Source: Candidatus Zixiibacteriota bacterium (GTDB taxonomy: Bacteria; Zixibacteria; MSB-5A5; SM23-73-2). From it: a DNA stretch of 10,736 nt. The DNA lies in assembly GCA_030615745.1 (NCBI GenBank), contig JAUWYR010000057.1, positions 1 through 10,736 of the forward strand. Direction: 5' to 3'. A program made the position numbers and the translations under genes. Position 1 is the stretch's first letter, and the number at the start of each line of letters is the position of its first letter. The notes beneath the pieces are model-generated. The model was not told where the DNA came from and did not search any database. It was given only the letters and a program-made list of their open reading frames with translations. Below are positions 648 through 10,178 of the stretch, piece after piece.

Positions 648-695
648 GCAGAGGGATAAACCCTCTGCTACGCGTAGAGGAGCCTTTATGGTTCC
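648..695. repeat. Two hairpins with facing CTAC/GTAG feet
   Basis: The first hairpin (648-668) has GCAGAGGG/CCCTCTGC around an ATAAA loop and is followed by CTAC (668-671). Two bases later GTAG (674-677) begins the second, whose stem GGAGCC/GGTTCC (679-695, one G-T pair) encloses TTTAT. The two feet themselves form the palindrome CTACGCGTAG. This is the opposite arrangement from the doublets at 6098-6153 and 7622-7669, where the feet point outwards. Confidence 0.6.
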
Positions 696-721
696 GATGC
701 CTTAGAATGGGCGGAGGGATT

Positions 722-748
722 GTAGACCCACCTTGAGGCAAGGTGGGT
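722..748. repeat. GTAG-footed perfect hairpin
   Basis: GTAG at 722-725 directly precedes ACCCACCTTG, which pairs perfectly with CAAGGTGGGT (739-748) across a 3-nt AGG loop. The tight loop and ten uninterrupted pairs make chance unlikely. It belongs to the foot-plus-variable-stem family seen elsewhere in the window. Confidence 0.65.
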
Positions 749-818
749 TACTTCTGGTCAACGTACCCACATGGTCTCCAGACCTTACGGGGTGAGTCTT
801 TTTGCCCTCTAAAACCAA

Positions 819-841
819 GTAAAGCTGAAGCTTTACACTCC
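819..841. repeat. ACTCC-footed hairpin upstream of the permease gene
   Basis: GTAAAGC and GCTTTAC (819-836) pair around TGAA and are followed by ACTCC (837-841). Read on the minus strand this is GGAGT plus a stem. The same foot with different stems occurs at 6009-6031 and, twice, in 7622-7669. It lies about 50 bp before the permease start codon and could affect its leader; no poly-T follows. Confidence 0.6.
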
Positions 842-890
842 AGAAGGCTAAAACTCCAATTTTCAAGGGGATAATAGAGTATATATTTCA

Positions 891-1997
891 ATGTTAGATT
901 TTCTTATTCTTTATTTAAAAGACTTATTTGATCTCACAAAAGACGCCTCTTTTTATCTTCTTTTAGGCTTTTTCTTGGCAGGAATAATCCACGAGTTTAT
1001 CTCAACTAAAAGTTTAGCTTATCATTTGGGAGGAAAAAGTGTAAAGTCCATCTTAAAAGCCTCCCTAATAGGAACACCCTTACCATTATGCTCCTGCGGT
1101 GTTATTCCCACCGCAGTAGCGTTGAGAAAAGAGGGCGCCTCAAAGGAATCAACAGTTTCCTTTTTAATCGCCACACCTGAGACCGGAGTTGATTCTATCT
1201 CTTTATCCTATGCTCTTTTGGATCCCCTGATGACCGTGTTCCGACCTATATCAGCAGTTGTGACTTCAATCTCAGCAGGTTTAGCCCAGATGCTTTTCGG
1301 TGACAGAAAAAATCAAAAGGCAGAAGTTTTATCTGATAAAGAAAGGTGTTGCAAAGATGAGTGCGAGGTTTCCAAAAAGAGTGAAAACCGAAAAAGTTTC
1401 ACCCAAAAATTAAAAGGTTCTTTTAGGTATGGATTCTTCATCTTTTTCGAGGATCTTGTCTGGTATATTGTTTTAGGATTTTTGATTGCTTCTTTGATCT
1501 CTGTTTTGGTTCCTCAAAGTTTTTTCATCGATAATTTAAAAGGCCAAGGACTTATTCCTATGTTGGCTATGATTTTGGTAGGGGTTCCCCTTTATATCTG
1601 TTCCACCTCGGCCACTCCCATAGCCAGCGCCCTGATTTTGAAAGGGGTCTCACCCGGAGCAGCTCTGGTTTTGCTTTTAGTGGGACCAGCAACCAATGTA
1701 GCAACCATCATAGCAGTGAGAAAATTTCTGGGGAAAAGGAGTTTGCTTTTATATATCGGTTCAATCGTGGTTTTGAGTTTACTTTTAGGATTTTTATTAA
1801 ACTGGCTCTATTTTCTTTTGCATCTCAGCCCAACTGCAGAATTAGGTCAGGGAGCAGAATTAGTTCCAAAAACTCTTAAAGTGATCTCAACTTTTATTTT
1901 TCTTTTGATGGTTTTACTGACAGGTGCCAAAAGGCTTTTTTTAGCAAGGCAACCGAAAACTTTAGCTTCACAAACGTCAAAGAAAATCAAGACGTAA
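891..1997 (+). CDS. DUF318/ArsP-type permease, SO_0444-like heavy-metal efflux transporter
   Basis: The 368-residue product is a polytopic membrane protein of the permease family PF03773. The signature GTPLPLCSCGVIP is at residues 61-73, followed by the SKESTVSFLIATPETGVDSI segment. The second half repeats the pattern with GVPLYICSTSATPIASA (about 231-247) and GPATN at 265-269, as expected for a two-lobed permease. Members related to SO_0444 are annotated as Cu/Zn efflux, others as arsenical permeases; the substrate here is not determined by sequence. The loop joining the halves carries a Cys cluster, RCCKDEC (residues 152-158), which could bind metal. The ATG at 891 is used because the preceding in-frame codons offer no better start; AAGGGG lies about 20 bp upstream, too far for a normal ribosome site. 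It probably forms an operon with the thioredoxin-like gene 46 bp downstream. Confidence 0.85.
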   Translation: MLDFLILYLKDLFDLTKDASFYLLLGFFLAGIIHEFISTKSLAYHLGGKSVKSILKASLIGTPLPLCSCGVIPTAVALRKEGASKESTVSFLIATPETGVDSISLSYALLDPLMTVFRPISAVVTSISAGLAQMLFGDRKNQKAEVLSDKERCCKDECEVSKKSENRKSFTQKLKGSFRYGFFIFFEDLVWYIVLGFLIASLISVLVPQSFFIDNLKGQGLIPMLAMILVGVPLYICSTSATPIASALILKGVSPGAALVLLLVGPATNVATIIAVRKFLGKRSLLLYIGSIVVLSLLLGFLLNWLYFLLHLSPTAELGQGAELVPKTLKVISTFIFLLMVLLTGAKRLFLARQPKTLASQTSKKIKT

Positions 1998-2043
1998 AAA
2001 TTTGAACTGGCTATTTTGTTGCAAACTCTATCAGACCTTAGAG

Positions 2044-2586
2044 ATGAAAAAATTTATTCGGACTAAAAGTTTTTTATTTTTTCTTTTGCCAATTATTTTA
2101 ATTTTCTTCTCTTTTCATCTTTTATGGGGCGGTGAATCAAAGGAAAAAGAAAAAAACACAGATTTGATCTGGTACCGCTATGATTTGGGATTGAAAAAGG
2201 CGGAAAAGGGGAAAAAACATCTTTTGCTCTATTTCTACACCAAGTATTGTGGATACTGCAGAAAAATGGAGAAAAACACTTTTTCTGACCGGAGGGTTAA
2301 AGAGATTCTCAATGATAATTACGTAAGCGTTAGAGTGGATGCAGGATCAAGAAACAAAGTTAAGTTCGATGGTTCCCAGATCACCGAAAGAGAACTGGCA
2401 CTTAAATATCGGGTGAGGGGATATCCGAGCAATTGGTTTTTAAAACCTGATGGTGAAAAAATTGCTCCAGTTATTGGATATATTGACCCGAAAAAATTCC
2501 TTTATATCTTAGAATATGTTAAAGATGATACTTACGAGAAGATGAGCTTCTCAGAGTATATGAAGCGTAAAAAAAGAGAAGAATAA
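2044..2586 (+). CDS. Exported thioredoxin-fold protein with CGYC active site
   Basis: The 180-residue product starts with a Lys-rich signal sequence and a long hydrophobic segment (about residues 9-28), so it is exported or membrane-anchored. The redox motif YCGYC places Cys69 and Cys72 in the CxxC; the cis-Pro typical of the fold is in RGYPS (Pro128). It resembles the thioredoxin_7/SoxW-type periplasmic thioredoxins, used as thiol reductants or oxidants outside the cytoplasm. I chose ATG 2044 over TTG 2002 because it places the signal peptide at the N-terminus; the upstream TTG would add 14 residues before it. The ribosome site is weak (TAGAG just before the ATG). Following the metal permease so closely, it may keep thiols or metal-binding Cys residues reduced, but that is inference. 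Confidence 0.8.
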   Translation: MKKFIRTKSFLFFLLPIILIFFSFHLLWGGESKEKEKNTDLIWYRYDLGLKKAEKGKKHLLLYFYTKYCGYCRKMEKNTFSDRRVKEILNDNYVSVRVDAGSRNKVKFDGSQITERELALKYRVRGYPSNWFLKPDGEKIAPVIGYIDPKKFLYILEYVKDDTYEKMSFSEYMKRKKREE

Positions 2587-2587
2587 A

Positions 2588-2611
2588 AGCAAAAACCAAG
2601 TTGCTTCTTTT
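2588..2611 (+). terminator. Weak candidate terminator
   Basis: AGCAA and TTGCT (2588-2605) can pair around an 8-nt loop and are followed by TCTTTTC. The stem is only 5 bp and AT-rich. The left arm and loop resemble the hairpins at 6009 and 7647 (AAGCAAAAAC...AAGTT), so it may instead be a decayed copy of those. It sits between two transcription units, just upstream of the promoter at 2632. Confidence 0.3.
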
Positions 2612-2631
2612 CATCCATCTGAACCTTTTTG

Positions 2632-2660
2632 TTGACACGGGCTAATTTATTTTATATTTT
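2632..2660 (+). promoter_or_regulatory. Promoter giving a nearly leaderless transcript for the 2669 operon
   Basis: A consensus -35 TTGACA lies at 2632-2637. Possible -10 hexamers are TATATT (2653-2658, 15-bp spacer) or TATTTT (2655-2660, 17-bp spacer). Transcription would begin at about 2665-2668, right against the ATG at 2669, leaving no room for a ribosome-binding site. Confidence 0.55.
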
Positions 2661-2668
2661 ACTTTAAA

Positions 2669-3619
2669 ATGAAGACAAAAATTTTTGTTTTTTTTCTCCT
2701 TTTTTTAATCATTCCTTCCCTTTCCTGGGGAGCAAAATACTCAGGCGAGTTCCTGTATCTGGGAGTAGGGGGTAAAGCTTTAGGGATGGGGGGTGCTTTT
2801 GTCTCGATCGCAGATGATGCCTCTGCCGGATACTGGAATCCTGCTGGTCTTTCTCAGCTTGACCAAAAAGAGCTTGTCTTTATGCATTCGGAAACCTTCG
2901 GCTCACTTTTAAATCACGATTTTTTGGGTTATGTTCTCCCATTGCATAAATCAACTTTGGCTTTTAGTTTGATTTGTCTCGGAGGTGGGGGTATAAAAAT
3001 AACTGAGCTTCAAAATCCAGGTGAGCCTATAAGTGCGAGTAATCGCCCCTACGTAAAAGAAGAGAAATCTCATGGAGATTATGTCTTTATCTTCTCCTAT
3101 TCCTTAGGAAAAAGCAAAAAATTCTTTTTAGGAGCAAATTTTAAACTTATATACAGGAACATAGCAGTTAACTCTGCTTATGGAGCTGGCTTGGATATAG
3201 GAGCTTTGGTAAATTTAGCTCACAATATCACCTTGGGCGTAAATCTTATGGATTTTACCACTACCCTTTTAGCTTATGATACCGGGACAAAAGAGAGCAT
3301 ATACCCTACTTTTAAATTAGGGTTAAGCACCAAAAGAAAATTCGAAAACTTCTTTTTGACTTTAGCTTTGGATAGTGATATAAGAAAGGAGAAAAGAAGG
3401 CATTCTACCCAGTATTGGATTGGTGATTTTTCCTTAGATACTCATTATGGATTAGATTTGTCTTATCTTGAAAAGTTTATGTTAAGAGGTGGATTTGACC
3501 AGGGCAATTTGACCTTAGGTTTTGGCTTTAAAGTTAAAAGATTTACAGTTGATATGGCTTTTTTAGACCACGATGAACTTGATAACACTTATCGCATCTC
3601 CTTGAAACTTAAGTTTTAG
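2669..3619 (+). CDS. PorV/PorQ-family outer-membrane beta-barrel protein
   Basis: The 316-residue protein has a signal peptide (residues 1-21, cleavage probably near SWGA). The family signature follows: GVGGKALGMGGAFVSIADDA at residues 32-51, then YWNPAGL. The rest alternates hydrophobic and polar residues as in beta strands and ends in an aromatic residue (LKLKF), typical of outer-membrane barrels recognised by BAM. In Bacteroidota PorV and PorQ are parts of the type IX secretion system; in other FCB phyla large paralogous sets exist whose role is less clear. Its presence fits the secreted dockerin protein and the FlgD/type-IX-like remnant in this window. It lies 2 bp before the foldase gene, so both are surely co-transcribed. 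It has no visible Shine-Dalgarno. Confidence 0.85.
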   Translation: MKTKIFVFFLLFLIIPSLSWGAKYSGEFLYLGVGGKALGMGGAFVSIADDASAGYWNPAGLSQLDQKELVFMHSETFGSLLNHDFLGYVLPLHKSTLAFSLICLGGGGIKITELQNPGEPISASNRPYVKEEKSHGDYVFIFSYSLGKSKKFFLGANFKLIYRNIAVNSAYGAGLDIGALVNLAHNITLGVNLMDFTTTLLAYDTGTKESIYPTFKLGLSTKRKFENFFLTLALDSDIRKEKRRHSTQYWIGDFSLDTHYGLDLSYLEKFMLRGGFDQGNLTLGFGFKVKRFTVDMAFLDHDELDNTYRISLKLKF

Positions 3620-3621
3620 CT

Positions 3622-5310
3622 ATGAAAGGGTTGAAACTTTTTTCCCTTTGTCTTTTTATCCTTTTTTTAAGCTGTTCTTTCCAAAAATTCCTTCACTCAG
3701 AAAAAGAGATAATAGCCAGAATTGATGGAAAAATTATCACATTAGCTCAATTTGAATCCAAACTAAAAGAAATGGGTTATTATTCAACAACTCCTGGTGA
3801 AGATTTTAAAAAGAAAAAAGAGGCATTGGAAAGTCTTTTAACAGATATTCTGGTCGAGGAAAAAGCAAAATCCCTAAATTTATCCCGGGATAAAGAGTTT
3901 CTAAGATTAAAACAAAAGCATATGGATAATTTTCTTTTAGAGCTTTTGTACAAAAAACATATAGATGAAAAAACCTTTGTCTTTTCTTATGAGATAGATT
4001 CTTTTTATCAGGAACATAAAGATGAATATTGGGAGACTCCTGAGTTTGCCAGAACCTACCATATCTTAGTTAGAGTTGGAGTCGATTCTTCTGATACTAA
4101 CTTTTTGGAAAAAGATAGAAAAGCAAAAGAAAAAATTCTTGAGATTCGCAAAAAAATAGAGGGAGGAGAGAATTTTTTTGAGTTAGCAAAAGAATACTCT
4201 GATGATAAGACCACAAAAAACAAGGGAGGTTATCTTGGAAAGTTAAGAAGGGGGATTATAATTCCGGAGTTTGAGAAGGTGGTCTTCTCTTTGAATCCTG
4301 GTGAAGTCTCAGAGCCTGTCAGAACCCGGGATGGATACCATTTGATCAGGGTGACAGAGATTAAAAGAGGGAAAAGGCGTCCTTTGGATCAGGAGGTTTC
4401 TAAAACTATAGAAATTTATCTAAAAAAGGAAAAGGAGGAAAAGAAGGCAACAGATTATGTGGAAAACTTAAAAAACCAAGCAAATTTGATATTTAATGAA
4501 GAGGTCTTATCGCAGAATGACTCTTTTGTGACTGGAAACCCATGGGTGATGATAATAAACGATAAAGATACAGTATGGTTTGAAGAATATTATGACTTCG
4601 CTTCTGCCTGGAAAATCACAAAGGAATTAGATTCTTTTCAACTCGAGAATAAAAAAGAGTTTTTAAAAGAGAATTTTTTGTTTTTTCCTGTTTTAAAACA
4701 GGATGCTATTGCCAAAGGATACCATACCTCAGAGGAATATTACAAAGAGGAAAAGTCTTTTGGGCTAAGTCAGGCGAAAATTAGAATTTTGGGAGAGGTC
4801 AACATAGATGATTATAATCCCACTGAAAAAGAGATATGGGATTATTATCTTTTAAATCAAGATAGGTTTGGAGGTGATACAACCATCTGGGTTCAGCATA
4901 TTGTTTTCACTGACTCGACCCAGGCAGAAAAAGTATATGAAAAGATTCTAGGTGGAGCTGACTTCGCTGAAATAGCAAAAAAATACTTAGCTGAAGACAA
5001 GAATTTGGTTTTTGATCTCGGATATATCAATTCCCAGAAGATGCCGGAGGAGTTTTTCAAAACTGCACTTAAAATAGACACGGGTAAGATTAGCCATCCG
5101 GTAAAGACTGAGTTTGGTTATCATCTGATTAAAGTTTTGGATAAAAAGATAAATTACCCTAAAAAAATATACATAGGAGAGATAAAAAACCAGTTAAAGC
5201 AGAAAGAATATAAAAGAAGAAAAGCTTTCTGGGAGAAAAAATTACAAGAAGGGGAAAAGATCTGGATTAACAAAAGGCTTTTAAGAAGCTACAGGTTAAA
5301 AAAGAGTTAA
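3622..5310 (+). CDS. SurA/PrsA-like lipoprotein peptidyl-prolyl isomerase with two parvulin domains
   Basis: The 562-residue product begins with a lipoprotein-like signal ending FLSC (Cys18), although Phe at -3 is not the usual lipobox residue. A SurA_N-like helical region follows (about 28-130). Parvulin domain 1 spans about 140-248, with HILV, the FFELAKEYSDD segment, GGYLG and DGYHLIRV. Parvulin domain 2 spans about 420-508, with QHIVF, DFAEIAKKY, DLGYI and FGYHLIKV. A linker domain separates them and the tail is Lys-rich. SurA and PrsA help outer-membrane or secreted proteins fold. At 562 residues it is longer than E. coli SurA (about 430) because of the linker and tail. Placement directly behind a barrel gene supports a role as periplasmic chaperone for barrels. 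The first domain keeps the parvulin motifs better than the second, so only one may be catalytic. Confidence 0.85.
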   Translation: MKGLKLFSLCLFILFLSCSFQKFLHSEKEIIARIDGKIITLAQFESKLKEMGYYSTTPGEDFKKKKEALESLLTDILVEEKAKSLNLSRDKEFLRLKQKHMDNFLLELLYKKHIDEKTFVFSYEIDSFYQEHKDEYWETPEFARTYHILVRVGVDSSDTNFLEKDRKAKEKILEIRKKIEGGENFFELAKEYSDDKTTKNKGGYLGKLRRGIIIPEFEKVVFSLNPGEVSEPVRTRDGYHLIRVTEIKRGKRRPLDQEVSKTIEIYLKKEKEEKKATDYVENLKNQANLIFNEEVLSQNDSFVTGNPWVMIINDKDTVWFEEYYDFASAWKITKELDSFQLENKKEFLKENFLFFPVLKQDAIAKGYHTSEEYYKEEKSFGLSQAKIRILGEVNIDDYNPTEKEIWDYYLLNQDRFGGDTTIWVQHIVFTDSTQAEKVYEKILGGADFAEIAKKYLAEDKNLVFDLGYINSQKMPEEFFKTALKIDTGKISHPVKTEFGYHLIKVLDKKINYPKKIYIGEIKNQLKQKEYKRRKAFWEKKLQEGEKIWINKRLLRSYRLKKS

Positions 5311-5311
5311 C

Positions 5312-5325
5312 AAGGGGATAGATTG
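5312..5325 (+). promoter_or_regulatory. Ribosome-binding site deciding a TTG start
   Basis: AAGGGG at 5312-5317 lies 5 bp before TTG 5323. It is the only well-spaced purine-rich ribosome site I see in the window, and it supports the TTG start. The first in-frame ATG (codon 50) would remove the conserved N-terminal segment. Confidence 0.6.
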
Positions 5326-5910
5326 GACATATCCATCAAAAATGAACTGAAAAGGAAAGCTATTCATTTGGGCGCAGCTGTTATTCCTCTATCCTATTAT
5401 TTTCTTTTTTCCAAACATACTGCTTTGTGCATTTATATACCTATCGCCTTAGTGTCGATTTTTATTGATATGATAAGGCTTTTGAAGTGGCCTCGTTTAT
5501 CAAGGGTGATCAGATGGTTTTTGCGTCCTATCCTGAGACGCCACGAGAGATTTGACTTTACTGGCTCAAGCTATATTTTATCTGCCTTCGTTTTATCAGT
5601 GATTTTTTTTGACAAAAAAATAGCAGTGGCGGTCCTATGTTTTGCTATTATAGGGGATGTGGCAGCTGCTTTAGTTGGCAGGTTCTTTGGGAGTGTGCAG
5701 GTGAATGGTAAAAAGACCTTGGAGGGGAGCTTAGCATTCTTCCTTATGTGCCTTTTAATTGTCATCGTCATCCCCTCCATCCCATTTTGGATAGGGGTTT
5801 TGGGCGCCTTGGTTGCAACATTAGTTGAGGCGGTGAGCTTTCCTTTAAACGATAATCTAACCGTTCCTTTGATCTCAGGAATGGCGATGAAGATTTTGTT
5901 TCTGCTGTAA
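5323..5910 (+). CDS. Diacylglycerol/polyprenol kinase family membrane protein (Dgk1/Sec59-like)
   Basis: The 195-residue protein has several hydrophobic segments and the motifs of the CTP-dependent kinase branch of the CTP-transferase superfamily. It opens with ELKRKAIHLG. The key stretches are FTGSSYI (79-85), GDVAAALVGRFFG (111-123), NGKKTLEGSLAFF (128-140) and EAVSFPLNDNLTVPLISG (169-186). Family members phosphorylate dolichol, diacylglycerol or phytol with CTP; in bacteria the usual substrate is unsettled, with undecaprenol a reasonable guess. The gene starts at TTG 5323, 12 bp after the foldase stop, and is probably the last gene of that operon. Association with envelope genes suggests lipid-carrier recycling, by inference. 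Confidence 0.8.
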   Translation: MDISIKNELKRKAIHLGAAVIPLSYYFLFSKHTALCIYIPIALVSIFIDMIRLLKWPRLSRVIRWFLRPILRRHERFDFTGSSYILSAFVLSVIFFDKKIAVAVLCFAIIGDVAAALVGRFFGSVQVNGKKTLEGSLAFFLMCLLIVIVIPSIPFWIGVLGALVATLVEAVSFPLNDNLTVPLISGMAMKILFLL

Positions 5911-5955
5911 ATTTTCATAATTTTTTGTTGTCTTTTAGTTTTATTGATAATTTGC

Positions 5956-5994
5956 TTTAAGGGGATGTTATCATTCCCGTTTAAATTCTTTTAG
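5956..5994. repeat. Module A, copy 1: GGGATG/CATYCC hairpin with conserved flank
   Basis: GGGATG and CATTCC(C) pair around TTAT, with outer TTTAA/TTAAA pairing as well. The right flank GTTTAAATT then CTTTTAG is shared with the copy at 7486-7521, where the loop and stem are the same apart from single-base changes. Two near-identical copies 1.5 kb apart mark this as a dispersed repeat. Confidence 0.7.
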
Positions 5995-6008
5995 TATTTA
6001 GATTAGAA

Positions 6009-6031
6009 GCAAAAACAAGTTTTTGCACTCC
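6009..6031. repeat. Module B, copy 1: ACTCC-footed hairpin
   Basis: GCAAAAAC/GTTTTTGC (6009-6026) pairs perfectly around AA and is followed by ACTCC and then TTTT. The identical hairpin and foot recur at 7647-7669. With its T-run it could end transcription of the 2669-5910 operon on the plus strand, although ACTCC separates stem and T-tract. Confidence 0.75.
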
Positions 6032-6037
6032 TTTTCT

Positions 6038-6086
6038 CGTGAGGCATAAAGCCCGACGCTACTTTACTCTTGTCACGGTTTATGCC
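6038..6086. repeat. CTAC-footed interrupted hairpin within a larger inverted repeat
   Basis: CGT/ACG and GGC/GCC pair around ATAAA (6038-6058), leaving a 2x2 internal loop, and CTAC follows at 6059-6062. The ATAAA loop is the same as in the hairpin at 648. A competing longer pairing joins GGCATAAA (6043-6050) with TTTATGCC (6079-6086). Confidence 0.5.
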
Positions 6087-6097
6087 GAAAAAAGGGT

Positions 6098-6153
6098 GTA
6101 GGTCGATTTTCTAAAATCGACTCTTTTCTGTCGAAATTGGAATTTCGACCTAC
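6098..6153. repeat. REPIN-like inverted doublet with GTAG and CTAC outer feet
   Basis: GTAG (6098-6101) precedes stem GTCGATTTT/AAAATCGAC (6102-6121, loop CT). After 8 bp, stem GTCGAAATT/AATTTCGAC (6130-6149, loop GG) is followed by CTAC (6150-6153). On the minus strand the second is again GTAG plus stem, so the two units are in inverted orientation with feet outwards. They share GTCGA at the base of the stem but differ in the inner arm while staying perfectly paired. Module C (the right unit) recurs at 7532-7555. Confidence 0.75.
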
Positions 6154-6177
6154 AACATTGGAATTTTGACTTACAAC
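6136..6177. repeat. 21-bp tandem duplication of half a hairpin
   Basis: Bases 6136-6156 and 6157-6177 are adjacent copies differing at two positions, both C in the first and T in the second. The copied segment is the right arm of the CTAC-footed hairpin with its foot (TTAC in the second copy). The duplicate lacks the left arm and cannot fold by itself. Confidence 0.7.
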
Positions 6178-6210
6178 TACTTTAAATACCGCTGTCTTGG
6201 ATAATTCCTC

Positions 6211-6238
6211 TTGACTTCTCTTTTGCGGTTTCTAAATT
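6211..6238 (+). promoter_or_regulatory. Candidate promoter for the threonine aldolase gene
   Basis: TTGACT (6211-6216) and TAAATT (6233-6238) are separated by 16 bp. Transcription would start near 6245, giving a leader of about 90 nt before ATG 6335. In the leader GTGAAAA (6249-6255) can pair with TTTTCAC (6278-6284), and a CCTCCTCC stretch lies between or at the edge of these arms. Confidence 0.4.
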
Positions 6239-6334
6239 GATTAAAAAAGTGAAAAACGGATGAACAAAACCTCCTCCTTTTCACATATCATATGCGTAGC
6301 AGAATCTTTATAGCTCAGAAAAATTGAATAAATT

Positions 6335-7390
6335 ATGAGGAATTATCCAGAACGTTCTTCGGTAATCGACTTAAGAAGCGATACCGTTACCAAACCCTCT
6401 TTAGCAATGAGGGAGGCTATTTTTAAGGCTGAGGTTGGGGATGATGTTTTCGGGGACGACCCTACTGTTGTTAAATTGGAGATGATTATCGCAGATTTGT
6501 TAGGCAAAGAATATGCCCTTTTTGTTCCGAGCGGGACCATGGCTAATCAGATCGCCTTGCGGAGTTTGACTCAGCCCGGGGATGAGGTCATCTTAGAGAA
6601 AGACTCTCATATTTTTAACTATGAAGCAGGCTCTGCCTCTGCTCTGTCCGGTTTACAGCTTCTACCTATCAAAGGCAAAAGAGGCGTTATCACCAAAGAA
6701 CAGATCGAAGCTGAGATAAGACCAGAGGACATCCATCATCCCAGATCAAAGATTATCTCTTTAGAGAATACCCATAATCGAGCAGGAGGGACTATCTTTC
6801 CCTTAGATGAAATTAAAAGAATTTTCAAATTAGCAAAAGAGAATAATCTCAAGCTATATTTAGATGGTGCCAGGTTGTGGAATGCAGTTATTGCAACAGG
6901 TATACCTTTACATAAATGGGCAAAAAATTTTCATTCAGTATCAGTATGTCTTTCCAAAGGATTAGGAGCTCCGATCGGCTCGGTTTTAGCAGGAGATGAG
7001 GAGTTTATTAAAAAAGCAAGAAGGATAAGAAAAATGTATGGTGGAGGGATGAGGCAGGTTGGGATTATCGCTTCAGCAGGAATATATGCGGTTGAGAATA
7101 ATTTCAACCGATTGATCGAGGATCACAGAAATGCAAAACTTTTAGCTGAGAGGTTATCCGAGCTAAAAGGTATCAAAATCGATCTGGAAAGCGTCCATAC
7201 AAATATCGTAGTTTTAGACATTTCCGAATCTGGTAAGGATGTTCCTTCAGTTATAAAAGAATTAAAAGAAAAAGGGGTTTTGGTTGTTCCTTTTGGAAAA
7301 ACGAAGATAAGGGTAGTTTGTCATTTAGATGTTACAAGAGATGATATTCTAAGGGCGTTGGAGAAGTTCAAGGAGGTTTTTGAAAGTTAA
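6335..7390 (+). CDS. ltaE: Low-specificity L-threonine aldolase (PLP-dependent)
   Basis: The 351-residue product cleaves L-threonine and L-allo-threonine to glycine and acetaldehyde and belongs to the beta-eliminating lyase, fold-type I PLP family. It starts with the family hallmark DLRSDTVTKP (residues 12-21). EVGDDVFGDDPT (33-44) follows, then FVPSGTMANQIA, His92 in the EKDSHIF region that stacks on the cofactor, and LYLDGAR with Asp177 and Arg180. The Schiff-base lysine is Lys208 in SVCLSKGLGAPIGS. Length is normal for the family. ATG 6335 is the only sensible start, adding about ten residues before the usual beginning; no Shine-Dalgarno is visible. The gene stands alone, with repeat-rich DNA on both sides carrying the same modules, and likely has its own promoter at about 6211. 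Confidence 0.93.
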   Translation: MRNYPERSSVIDLRSDTVTKPSLAMREAIFKAEVGDDVFGDDPTVVKLEMIIADLLGKEYALFVPSGTMANQIALRSLTQPGDEVILEKDSHIFNYEAGSASALSGLQLLPIKGKRGVITKEQIEAEIRPEDIHHPRSKIISLENTHNRAGGTIFPLDEIKRIFKLAKENNLKLYLDGARLWNAVIATGIPLHKWAKNFHSVSVCLSKGLGAPIGSVLAGDEEFIKKARRIRKMYGGGMRQVGIIASAGIYAVENNFNRLIEDHRNAKLLAERLSELKGIKIDLESVHTNIVVLDISESGKDVPSVIKELKEKGVLVVPFGKTKIRVVCHLDVTRDDILRALEKFKEVFES

Positions 7391-7412
7391 ATTCCTAACA
7401 GATTAAACAGAT

Positions 7413-7480
7413 TAGTAGACAGTATTCAGTAGACAGTAGACAGAAAACAGAAAACGGTAGACAGTAAACGGTAAACGGTT
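7413..7480. repeat. Second heptanucleotide array
   Basis: From 7427 the units run CAGTAGA, CAGTAGA, CAGAAAA, CAGAAAA, CGGTAGA, CAGTAAA, CGGTAAA, CGGTT without a gap, preceded by imperfect units from about 7413. They are the same degenerate 7-mer as at 266-508. As there, the array lies close behind a stop codon, about 20 bp after the threonine aldolase gene. Confidence 0.85.
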
Positions 7481-7485
7481 GCTCT

Positions 7486-7521
7486 AAAGGGATGTTATCA
7501 TCCCCGTTTAAATTTTTTTAG
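7486..7521. repeat. Module A, copy 2
   Basis: GGGATG/CATCCC pair around TTAT (7489-7504) and are followed by CCGTTTAAATT and TTTTTAG, matching 5959-5994 with few changes. The change from T in copy 1 to C in copy 2 replaces a G-T pair by G-C, so pairing is preserved. Confidence 0.7.
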
Positions 7522-7531
7522 GGTATAGTTT

Positions 7532-7555
7532 GTCGAAATTGGAATTTCGACCTAC
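7532..7555. repeat. Module C, copy 2: CTAC-footed hairpin
   Basis: GTCGAAATT/AATTTCGAC around GG, followed by CTAC at 7552-7555. It is identical to 6130-6153, including the preceding T. An eight-base T-run follows, which could make it a terminator on the plus strand. Confidence 0.75.
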
Positions 7556-7575
7556 TTTTTTTTATCACTCTGCAA

Positions 7576-7615
7576 GGGAGCCCACCCTGGCCGGGCAGGC
7601 AAGGGGCTCCCCTAC
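7576..7615. repeat. Long GC-rich hairpin with CTAC foot
   Basis: GGGAGCCC (7576-7583) pairs with GGGCTCCC (7604-7611), and CTAC follows at 7612-7615. The 20-base loop is GC-rich and contains further self-complementary bases. It is the GC-rich counterpart of the AT-rich hairpins nearby, with the same foot. Confidence 0.65.
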
Positions 7616-7621
7616 ATTTCT

Positions 7622-7669
7622 GGAGTGCAATCCATATGGATTGCGAGCAAAAACAAGTTTTTGCACTCC
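7622..7669. repeat. REPIN-like inverted doublet with GGAGT and ACTCC outer feet
   Basis: GGAGT (7622-7626) precedes the perfect palindrome GCAATCCAT/ATGGATTGC (7627-7644). Two bases later GCAAAAAC/GTTTTTGC (7647-7664) is followed by ACTCC (7665-7669). The outer feet are exact inverted copies, while the two stems are unrelated apart from GCAA at their base. The right unit is module B, also found at 6009-6031. Confidence 0.75.
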
Positions 7670-7779: not shown

Positions 7780-9291
7780 TTACTGGGGGATCGTCCAGTG
7801 GTAGGACACATGGCTCTGGACCATGGAACCGGGGTTCGAATCCCTGTCCCCCAGCCAATCTTCCGTTTTGACCCCTTTGGCTAAGATGTCAAAGGGTTTT
7901 CTGTATGTGGCACAAAGAGTTCCATTAGTGAGGGTGCAGTTCGAAAGTATATAATCCAAAAGTTTCCTCTTTTCAAAGGCATTTTGGCTAAGATAAAGGG
8001 GATAAGCACGATGTGCCAGTTCTAAGATTTTTACTCCCTGGTCAAAGTAGTTTACATTGGCGTTCTCGTGTTTTTCAATTTTCTCCCTTATTGCCTGTTG
8101 TTCGTCTCTCCATTCTTCAGATTTCTCTCTCCAGAAGTCCTCAGTTATCTTGCCATCTAATTTGTCCAAATAGACTTGGTCGAGTCGATTTTGAATTCTT
8201 ACATACTGAGCATTTAGGTTCTTTATCATCTGGTCATGGTATTCCTTCTCGTCCTTATGACTCAATCTTAAAGCTTCCTTTATCAATTCCAGATGTGTTT
8301 TGTCTATGCAAATATTTTTGACAGTTTCGCCCAACTTCTCTTCCAATTCTTCTTCCCTAATCCAGGAATTGCCACATTTGCCTTTAAAGCCGGTGCAGTG
8401 ATAGTAGATATATTTTCCTTTTTTGATTTCTGCAGTTATAGTGCATCCGCATTTTCCGCAGGTCAAAAGCCCTCCAAAAGCAAAGGTTCTATTGGAATAT
8501 TTAGGTTTGTTTTGCCTTTTGAAGACCTCTTGCACTGTGTCAAACAATTCCTTGCTTATGATAGGTGGGTGATTGCCTTTATAAATTTTTCCGTCCCATT
8601 TGAAGTATCCGGTATAAAAGGTGTTTTTTAATATCCTTTCTGCGTTGCTTCTGCTGATGTATTTTTCAGACTTTCTATATTTTAAACCTTCTTCTATGCA
8701 CTTTTGTCTGATAGCGGAGATGGAATAATTCCCGGACGCATACCATTGGAACATCAGTTTAATAAAAGGTGCTCTTTTGGGGTCAATTTCGATGGTGTGA
8801 GTTTCCTTGTTATTGATATATCCCAAAGGTGCTTTGTTGGGATACCCACCTTGCTCTACCTTTTCAGTAAGTCCTTTTTTAACCTCATCAGACAGATTAT
8901 CAATATAATTTTTCGCCATCAGCACTTTTATTCCGTGTATAAACTTCTGATGTGACTTAGAATCCTTGCTTAAAACTTCACCTTCTTTGACCAGATGTAT
9001 CTCTAAATCAAGCTCATCTATTGTTATATAATCTTTGAAATTTCTGTAAAGTCTATCTGTTTTTTCAACAAGGATGGTGTTAACCTCAGGATTTTTCTGA
9101 AGGAATTTTATCATCTCCCCAAAGTTTGCTCTTCCGGCTTTTTTGGCTGTTTCAACGTCGATGAATTCTTTAACTATTTTGAGATTGTTTTTATAGGCGT
9201 AGTCTTTGAGGAGTCTTAGCTGAGCAGGTATAGAATATCCTTCTTTTTCCTGCTCTTTGCTGGATACTCTTGCGTAAACAATCGCTTTCAT
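7780..9291 (-). CDS. Large serine recombinase / site-specific integrase
   Basis: The 503-residue product has a resolvase-type catalytic domain at the N-terminus (residues 1-about 140). YARVSS gives nucleophile Ser10, with Arg8 beside it, and EKTDRLYRN gives Arg80 and Arg83. A recombinase DNA-binding domain follows (about 145-265, with PLGYINN and the ILKNTFYTGYF region). Next is a zinc ribbon (Cys278, Cys281, Cys299, Cys306) and a coiled coil (about 340-410), which in this family controls the direction of recombination. Such enzymes integrate and excise phages, ICEs and genomic islands. Residues 479-503 are encoded by the antisense of the entire tRNA-Gln gene, with TAA two bases beyond it. 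The native C-terminus in the excised element is therefore probably different. ATG 9291 is preceded by a weak site, TTAGAGAA. A 62-bp gap separates it from the nuclease gene. Confidence 0.92.
   Translation of the reverse strand: MKAIVYARVSSKEQEKEGYSIPAQLRLLKDYAYKNNLKIVKEFIDVETAKKAGRANFGEMIKFLQKNPEVNTILVEKTDRLYRNFKDYITIDELDLEIHLVKEGEVLSKDSKSHQKFIHGIKVLMAKNYIDNLSDEVKKGLTEKVEQGGYPNKAPLGYINNKETHTIEIDPKRAPFIKLMFQWYASGNYSISAIRQKCIEEGLKYRKSEKYISRSNAERILKNTFYTGYFKWDGKIYKGNHPPIISKELFDTVQEVFKRQNKPKYSNRTFAFGGLLTCGKCGCTITAEIKKGKYIYYHCTGFKGKCGNSWIREEELEEKLGETVKNICIDKTHLELIKEALRLSHKDEKEYHDQMIKNLNAQYVRIQNRLDQVYLDKLDGKITEDFWREKSEEWRDEQQAIREKIEKHENANVNYFDQGVKILELAHRAYPLYLSQNAFEKRKLLDYILSNCTLTNGTLCATYRKPFDILAKGVKTEDWLGDRDSNPGSMVQSHVSYHWTIPQ
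7784..7857 (+). tRNA. tRNA-Gln, anticodon CUG, CCA end encoded
   Basis: The 74-nt sequence folds as a standard cloverleaf. The acceptor TGGGGGA pairs with TCCCCCA. The D arm is GTCC-AGTGGTA-GGAC. The anticodon arm is CATGG-CTCTGGA-CCATG, with CTG at positions 34-36. The variable region is 4 nt. The T arm is CGGGG-TTCGAAT-CCCTG with one G-T pair. G is the discriminator and CCA is encoded. It therefore reads CAG codons. The gene is complete and apparently functional although a serine recombinase gene runs antisense through all of it. Confidence 0.95.
7784..7857. other. Probable attachment site at the tRNA-Gln gene
   Basis: The recombinase gene abuts and reads into the 3' end of the tRNA, the usual site where integrating elements recombine and restore the tRNA. 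I find no second copy of the tRNA 3' end to the right in this window, so the other end of the element is either outside or has only a very short core repeat. The exact crossover base cannot be read. Confidence 0.4.
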
Positions 9292-9353: not shown

Positions 9354-10178
9354 TCATAGAATAAACAGCTTGCTTTCTGCCTGAGCAAGAATTGTATCTC
9401 TTAGTCCTCGGCATAATGGCACAAGTGCATCAAAACCTAAACCGAGGTTATTCTTAAATAAGCTCTCTGAAAGTATCAAATATTTCCACTCCTGAGGCTG
9501 GCGAAATTCGCCTGGTGGTGGAACTGTTGACGCCTGCTCACACCAAGCAACTGCCGCTCTAACCTTGACTGTAACATTGGGGCTATTTAAGTCTCTATCT
9601 GCCTTGGTTTCCACAAGATAATCCCTGTCAGCTGTTTTTACGATAAAGTCTACCTCATAGTTTCTCAGGATACCTGTTTCATCCCTATATGTGATTTTCA
9701 ACTTGTGCCGTCTATCCAGTTTAGAGTAAGAGAGAACTTCTGCTGACGGATTTAATGTATTTATCATAAAATCTCGTTCAAATCCTCCCCCTTTGACTTG
9801 ATAACCGAGTCTTGGATATATACTCTTATCCGTCTCTATCGATTTACTCTCCCTTACCATAATCCTCGGAACATCTGATAGTTTACCCCAAATCCCCTTT
9901 ACCTCATATTTGTATCCCTCTATCAGTTTCACTATCGCCTGATGGATGGTTTGAACGATATGATCAAAGACAACTGTATAATTCAAAACACAGTAGTTTT
10001 CCTGTTTGGTAAAGTCGATAGATTCCCCAAAGCAATATTCGGACACATAATCATCAATCAATTCTGCAATCTTTGCCTGTTGTGCTGTAAGAATAGAAGT
10101 TCTTCCCCTTATTGCTACTGCTCTGGATGCCTGTCTTAAGAAATGCGAATAATCAAAATCCTCATTATCCAGTTTCAT
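9354..10178 (-). CDS. Orphan C-terminal nuclease module of a type III restriction (Res) protein
   Basis: The 274 residues resemble the C-terminal part of type III Res subunits and related DEAD/DEAH restriction helicases. The region includes ILTAQQAKIAELIDDY (29-44), GFERDF (132-137), YRDETGILRNYEVDFIV and VETKADRD. The PD-(D/E)XK site is visible as Asp177 followed by Glu190-Thr-Lys192. Full-length Res proteins are roughly 900-1000 residues with an N-terminal helicase, which is absent here. There is no Mod methylase in the window. Either this is a truncated remnant carried by the element, or a free-standing nuclease with its own start. ATG 10178 overlaps the preceding small ORF by 14 bp, which suggests translational coupling and favours expression. 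The reading frame itself is intact to TGA. Family assignment is from recall of the motif order, not a search. Confidence 0.7.
   Translation of the reverse strand: MKLDNEDFDYSHFLRQASRAVAIRGRTSILTAQQAKIAELIDDYVSEYCFGESIDFTKQENYCVLNYTVVFDHIVQTIHQAIVKLIEGYKYEVKGIWGKLSDVPRIMVRESKSIETDKSIYPRLGYQVKGGGFERDFMINTLNPSAEVLSYSKLDRRHKLKITYRDETGILRNYEVDFIVKTADRDYLVETKADRDLNSPNVTVKVRAAVAWCEQASTVPPPGEFRQPQEWKYLILSESLFKNNLGLGFDALVPLCRGLRDTILAQAESKLFIL

Follow-up and report, generated by a model that had tools for sequence, protein, structure and literature searches.

The window analysed here, a stretch of 10,736 nucleotides from the draft genome (98.6% complete) of Candidatus Zixiibacteriota bacterium (GCA_030615745.1; source genome, G000), carries a dozen dispersed hairpins with a GTAG or GGAGT foot and strongly differing stems, and the question it raises is what kind of element these hairpins are and how such different stems have come to stay paired. 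An earlier note on this DNA had proposed a REP-like system served by a RAYT (TnpA_REP, a single-strand transposase of the Y1 HUH type), with either a structure-only stem requirement or a rewriting of stems by fold-back copying. All twelve hairpins are present with the position, foot and strand that the note had given them (Table 1); its further claim that they pair exactly holds for nine of the twelve, and fails for 674-695, 6038-6062 and 7576-7615. A 25-base footless hairpin, GGATGTTATCATYCCCGTTTAAATT, stands before two of the REP clusters (5963-5987 and 7490-7514) and has only three copies in the genome, and longer GC-rich hairpins without a REP foot lie at 519-626 (CTGTCGGG... and CCGCCAGGTC-TGGG-GACCTGGCGG), with similar ones near L103 1400-1500. 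The congener used for comparison throughout is Zixibacteria bacterium SM23_73_2 (G001).

Table 1. Footed hairpins of the window, with stem pairing and counterparts in other genomes.
Position	Strand	Feature	Stem pairing	Counterparts
648..671	-	GTAG REP, stem CAGAGGG, loop TTTAT	perfect	family as at relatives' RAYT L041
674..695	+	decayed GTAG REP, family of the 648..671 unit	imperfect (G-T pair)	cf. L023, GTAG CGGAGCC tttac
722..748	+	GTAG hairpin, 10-bp stem, ACCCACCTTG	perfect	
819..841	-	GGAGT REP, stem GTAAAGC, loop TTCA	perfect	G001 orthologue with stem GTTAAGC
6009..6031	-	GGAGT REP, stem GCAAAAA, loop CTTG	perfect	G001 orthologous site without the unit
6038..6062	-	decayed GTAG REP, CGTCGGG/TTTAT family	imperfect (mismatches)	family of relatives' RAYT L053
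6098..6121	+	class C GTAG REP, stem GTCGATTT, loop TCTA; left half of feet-outward heterodimer	perfect	
6130..6153	-	class C GTAG REP, stem GTCGAAAT, loop TCCA; right half of heterodimer with 6098..6121	perfect	
6154..6178	-	decayed tandem copy of the 6130..6153 unit, 21-bp repeat		
7532..7555	-	class C GTAG REP, stem GTCGAAAT	perfect	identical unit at G001 orthologous site
7576..7615	-	GTAG hairpin	imperfect (long, interrupted stem)	mostly conserved in G001
7622..7644	+	GGAGT REP, stem GCAATCC, loop ATAT; heterodimer half	perfect	G001 orthologous site without the unit
7647..7669	-	GGAGT REP, stem GCAAAAA, loop CTTG	perfect	decayed foot in G001

Several other features share the window with the hairpins. 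A 7-bp unit (AGTAAAC / CAGTAGA) is repeated in degenerate tandem arrays at 264-508 and 7414-7479, the former including a higher-order 95-bp repeat at 266-501, and the congener has a similar array at the orthologous position (L066, about 13150-13215). At the left edge, positions 2-271 encode the C-terminal dockerin type I domain of an ORF truncated by the end of the window. A large serine recombinase ORF (7780-9291, minus strand) ends within a tRNA-Gln gene (7784-7857) and may mark an element integrated at tRNA-Gln; synteny with the congener ends just before this ORF, and the adjoining ORF (9354-10178) is weakly similar to the C-terminal part of BPTD_3080-type restriction endonucleases.

Foot statistics were obtained from 327.6 kb of the source genome, taken as stretches, in which 464 perfect hairpins (arms of at least 7 bp, loop 3-10) were listed. 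A reversed-sequence control with 6-bp arms proved too permissive (59 hits vs 92), and therefore a 7-bp minimum arm and permuted feet were used instead. GTAG ranked first of the 256 foot tetramers (52 observed vs 5.1 expected, z 20.7), far above chance, and GAGT, GGAG and GTTG were likewise clearly enriched. Under the 7-bp minimum, GTAG preceded 48 hairpins of the sample compared to 9 for GATG, a commoner tetramer, and GGAGT, also strongly enriched, preceded 24 compared to 1-3 for permuted feet. The pattern recurs elsewhere in the genome, as the earlier note's reading required: genome-wide searches with two family patterns, class C and GGAGT, with the mid-stem left free, returned 36 and 77 matches, respectively, and the reversed patterns 0 and 1. 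Although ORFs of at least 150 aa make up 79% of the sample, 69 of 79 sampled units lie outside them; the units are dispersed, multi-copy and mostly extragenic, like REPs. T precedes GGAGT in 60 of 65 units, and a clear CT cleavage dinucleotide was not seen in the unit flanks.

The stems had been taken as unrelated, which is only partly correct. When the hairpins are listed jointly, at least eight families can be distinguished, the members of each having the same foot, stem base and type of loop: GTCGNNNT with loop TYCA, GTCAGGAGC with loop CCYGY, GTCAAG with 10-nt loops, GGGAGNCC with loop CTTGT, CNGAGNN and CGTCGGG both with loop TTTAT, GCAC with loop TTTA, CGCA with loop TTCA, the GGAGT-footed family with loop TTYA or CTTG, and a GTTG-footed set. 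Within one family, the stems differ by whole base pairs. All 36 genome-wide class C matches are perfectly paired and comprise five stem variants (shuffled arms gave a mean of 8.7 perfect), and 67 of the 77 GGAGT matches are perfectly paired, with 13 variants mostly one base pair apart (shuffled arms, mean 10.4). The GTAG families carry the GT[AG]G foot at a palindrome by which REPs are recognised, whereas the GGAG and GTTG families lack it in its strict form and are therefore classed as a REP-like variant rather than as strict REPs. The premise of a fixed stem sequence in classical REP families was also too strict, because alternative complementary stem residues define sub-families in most GTAG families (PMC3733652).

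A search with profile NF047646 (cut-off 80 bits) supports the proposed link to RAYTs. Three RAYT genes are present in the source genome (L001, L002 and L003, 102-145 bits), with the HUH motif and the tyrosine motif Y---NP, and footed hairpins stand on both sides of each, one family per RAYT (GTAG-GTCAGGAGC, GTTG-TGCTG and GTAG-GTCAAG). RAYTs were also found in 28 of 30 relatives, and several families of the window lie beside them: class C at L027 of G001, CGTCGGGC at L053, CCGAGGG at L041, and GGAGT hairpins at L069, L047 and L075. REPs flank the gene on both sides at L001, L002, L003, L027, L028, L033, L034, L049, L053, L069 and L075. For most window families, the flanked RAYT thus sits in a relative and not in the source genome; near the site of the class C RAYT of G001, the source genome has class C hairpins and no RAYT. 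L003 and L027, which are sister RAYTs, have REPs that are related without being the same. With three RAYTs for at least eight families of hairpins in a draft that is 98.6% complete, most cognate pairs rest on the relatives. Several families, all those with a GGAG(T) foot among them, thus appear to be orphaned, with no RAYT of their own in the genome. There are many families, with stem base and loop specific to each, and the RAYTs lie beside particular families, which speaks against one system with a structure-only stem requirement. The L002 locus (1370-2090, G000 contig C25) shows a third foot type of the source genome, its GTTG-footed hairpins on both sides of the RAYT having the stems TGCTGGATT and TGCTGCATT.

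GGAG hairpins were found beside nine RAYT loci, in eight genomes belonging to five families; at one locus the RAYT gene is broken, and at two the hairpins were seen on a single side. Seven of the proteins could be aligned, and these form one clade (support 100/100; none of 500 label shuffles as low) in the final tree, which has more members, the L077 foot read by eye and L076 kept apart, whereas an earlier tree, with L077 unlabelled and L076 labelled GGAGT, required three label changes. L076, which has an NHYH motif and a single GGAGT hairpin on one side only, falls elsewhere in the tree than the GGAG clade and is assigned to no group here. Proteins of the clade have an N-H-[YF]-H motif, and Y, W, H or F replaces the Gln of the WQ motif of GTAG RAYTs. 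This Gln (Q95 in E. coli) is among the residues reported to contact the GTAG foot. W94, Q95 and R104 are conserved in GTAG-associated subclasses, but a subclass that combines W[YH] with GT[AG]G feet is also described (PMC6006769), and a link between the WQ residue and the foot is hence hypothetical. Compared by description only, the GGAG clade resembles TnpA_Y1 subclass 2.8 (PMC6006769) in its NHYH, W[YH] and YIHYNP motifs; that subclass is described from Cyanobacteria, with GT[AG]G feet and a proline-rich N-terminus. The motifs fit in part and the foot differs.

The earlier note had mentioned GGAG-footed REP families; none were found in the open-access REP literature searched, which describes the feet GT[AG]G, CGTC and CnGA, but the GGAG foot is real here. 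A close RAYT of the GGAG clade was not found in the source genome, where the best matches are GTAG RAYTs, and its GGAGT units therefore look orphaned. Judged from sequence, the tie between the GGAG(T) foot and a RAYT branch of its own is the new part of this work, with no earlier description found in the REP literature searched. We lean slightly towards the view that a Zixibacteria RAYT lineage switched its guide from GTAG to GGAG, with loss of the WQ Gln, and founded a large undescribed superfamily of GGAG-tagged REPs.

As in REPINs, many of the units are arranged head to head: the sample contains 15 feet-outward inverted dimers with gaps of 1-35 bp, and all 15 join members of the same family and never identical stems. 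In the coordinates of the genome-wide matches, 11 of 11 class C dimers join GTCGATTT to another stem and 9 of 9 GGAGT dimers have a ..CC tip on one partner and ..GC or ..GT on the other; counting the source genome and G001, unlike stems occur in about 31 of 31 distinct dimers. Random re-pairing gave P 0.003 for the alpha/beta pairing of class C and P 0.01 for the GGAGT tips, while simple non-identity of the GGAGT stems alone was not significant (P 0.10). Near the RAYTs of the relatives, 17 of 25 dimers are unlike and 8 are identical-stem homodimers, which means that heterodimers are not obligatory for the system. DNA folding left the feet 57% unpaired in native dimers vs 4% in virtual homodimers, a contrast that is partly built in because identical palindromes necessarily cross-pair, and cross-pairing is still sizeable in several native dimers. 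A bias towards heterodimers has already been reported for other REPs, with its cause unsettled, and has been linked, as a proposal, to SbcCD avoidance (PMC3733652). The GGAGT dimer of G001 at L069 (1268-1395 and 1970-2085) is a longer unit, with extra internal hairpins between its footed ends (GGTCAAGC... and GTAAACCC-TTCG-GGGTTTAC).

With high confidence, we interpret the hairpins as several coexisting REP families, each moved, now or formerly, by its own RAYT, whose activity is predicted. A hairpin would fold while the DNA is single-stranded, the RAYT would read the foot as a guide together with the folded stem and loop, and its cutting and joining of DNA would allow dimers to spread. The stem sequence would be nearly free provided that pairing holds, so that variants could accumulate, and the unlike partners of a dimer would avoid pairing with each other, leaving the feet single-stranded. 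Group-3 RAYTs recognise the folded REP strand-specifically, with the foot guiding the cleavage site, and need a paired stem and particular loop bases, whereas the stem sequence matters little and mismatches hurt (PMC8266576). The fixed foot, few loop types and free but paired mid-stems found here fit this biochemistry, and the same action may be expected by analogy.

Stems could instead be actively rewritten in place, by quasi-palindrome correction or fold-back copying, with nothing but the foot and the ability to fold being kept. After repeat masking, orthologous sites of G000 and G001 yielded nine matched hairpins, a small set from which pairs with the stem broken in one genome would escape. 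Rewriting would account for the one at window position 819, where both arms show a matched change (GTAAAGC vs GTTAAGC), and for those stem variants that are G-C to C-G swaps, which require two transversions. But the stems of the other eight are identical, several with a changed loop, despite flanks that are only about 72-82% identical; the variants are not random stems but recur as a few subfamilies, and a G-C/C-G swap is what distinguishes two dimer partner types. Whole units, moreover, are present or absent: G001 lacks both the 6009-6153 cluster and the 7622-7644 unit at the orthologous sites, a difference between the two sequences that fits mobile elements. Taken together, identical stems and presence or absence of whole units point to stable inheritance with gain and loss of units, and we consider rewriting very improbable.

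An identity as ordinary intrinsic terminators, or as RNA elements of another kind, with an incidental foot might be suggested by the mostly intergenic location of the hairpins and by the T or A runs near some of them. This is extremely unlikely given that the feet are single-sided, strand-specific and fixed in sequence, that the dimers are inverted and RAYT genes lie between matching copies, and that the only Rfam match in the window is the tRNA. A different possibility is that one relaxed RAYT, reading only foot and fold, serves all families of the source genome, for which there are just three RAYTs; group-3 RAYTs do tolerate stem changes (PMC8266576). However, particular families flank particular RAYTs, the sisters L003 and L027 have distinct REPs, the GGAG foot tracks a single RAYT clade, and the missing RAYTs occur in relatives, such as at the G001 site beside which the source genome has class C hairpins without a RAYT, all of which makes a shared RAYT improbable.

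The system of several REP families with RAYTs of their own has clear likenesses among known ones. Like the GTAG REPs of group-3 RAYTs in Stenotrophomonas and Marinomonas (PMC8266576, PMC3686654), it has GTAG abutting a short perfect stem with a small loop, inverted doublets, a RAYT between REPs and a loose constraint on stem sequence; unlike them, many families occur in one Zixibacteria genome, and GGAG and GTTG feet are present as well. With the GTAG superfamily of Di Nocera et al. 2013 (PMC3733652) it shares tagged palindromes, complementary stem sub-families, head-head heterodimers and intergenic location, but GGAG falls outside the degenerate feet of that superfamily (GYAG, GYRG, GTRG, GTMG and GTGG). 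Doublets of unlike REPs are also known from the BIMEs of E. coli (Y and Z REPs), where, unlike here, the stems are bulged and there is one RAYT. No REP paper on the phylum Zixibacteria was found in the literature searched.

Overall, a known kind of element, REPs with their RAYTs, accounts for the hairpins and is now extended to Zixibacteria. The orthologous comparison, though small, speaks directly for REP stems being inherited and constrained in place; on this evidence, subfamilies rather than continual rewriting are the main source of their variety. The GGAG foot and its own RAYT clade make a natural pair for asking by what means a RAYT recognises its guide, and whether protein residues have changed along with it.
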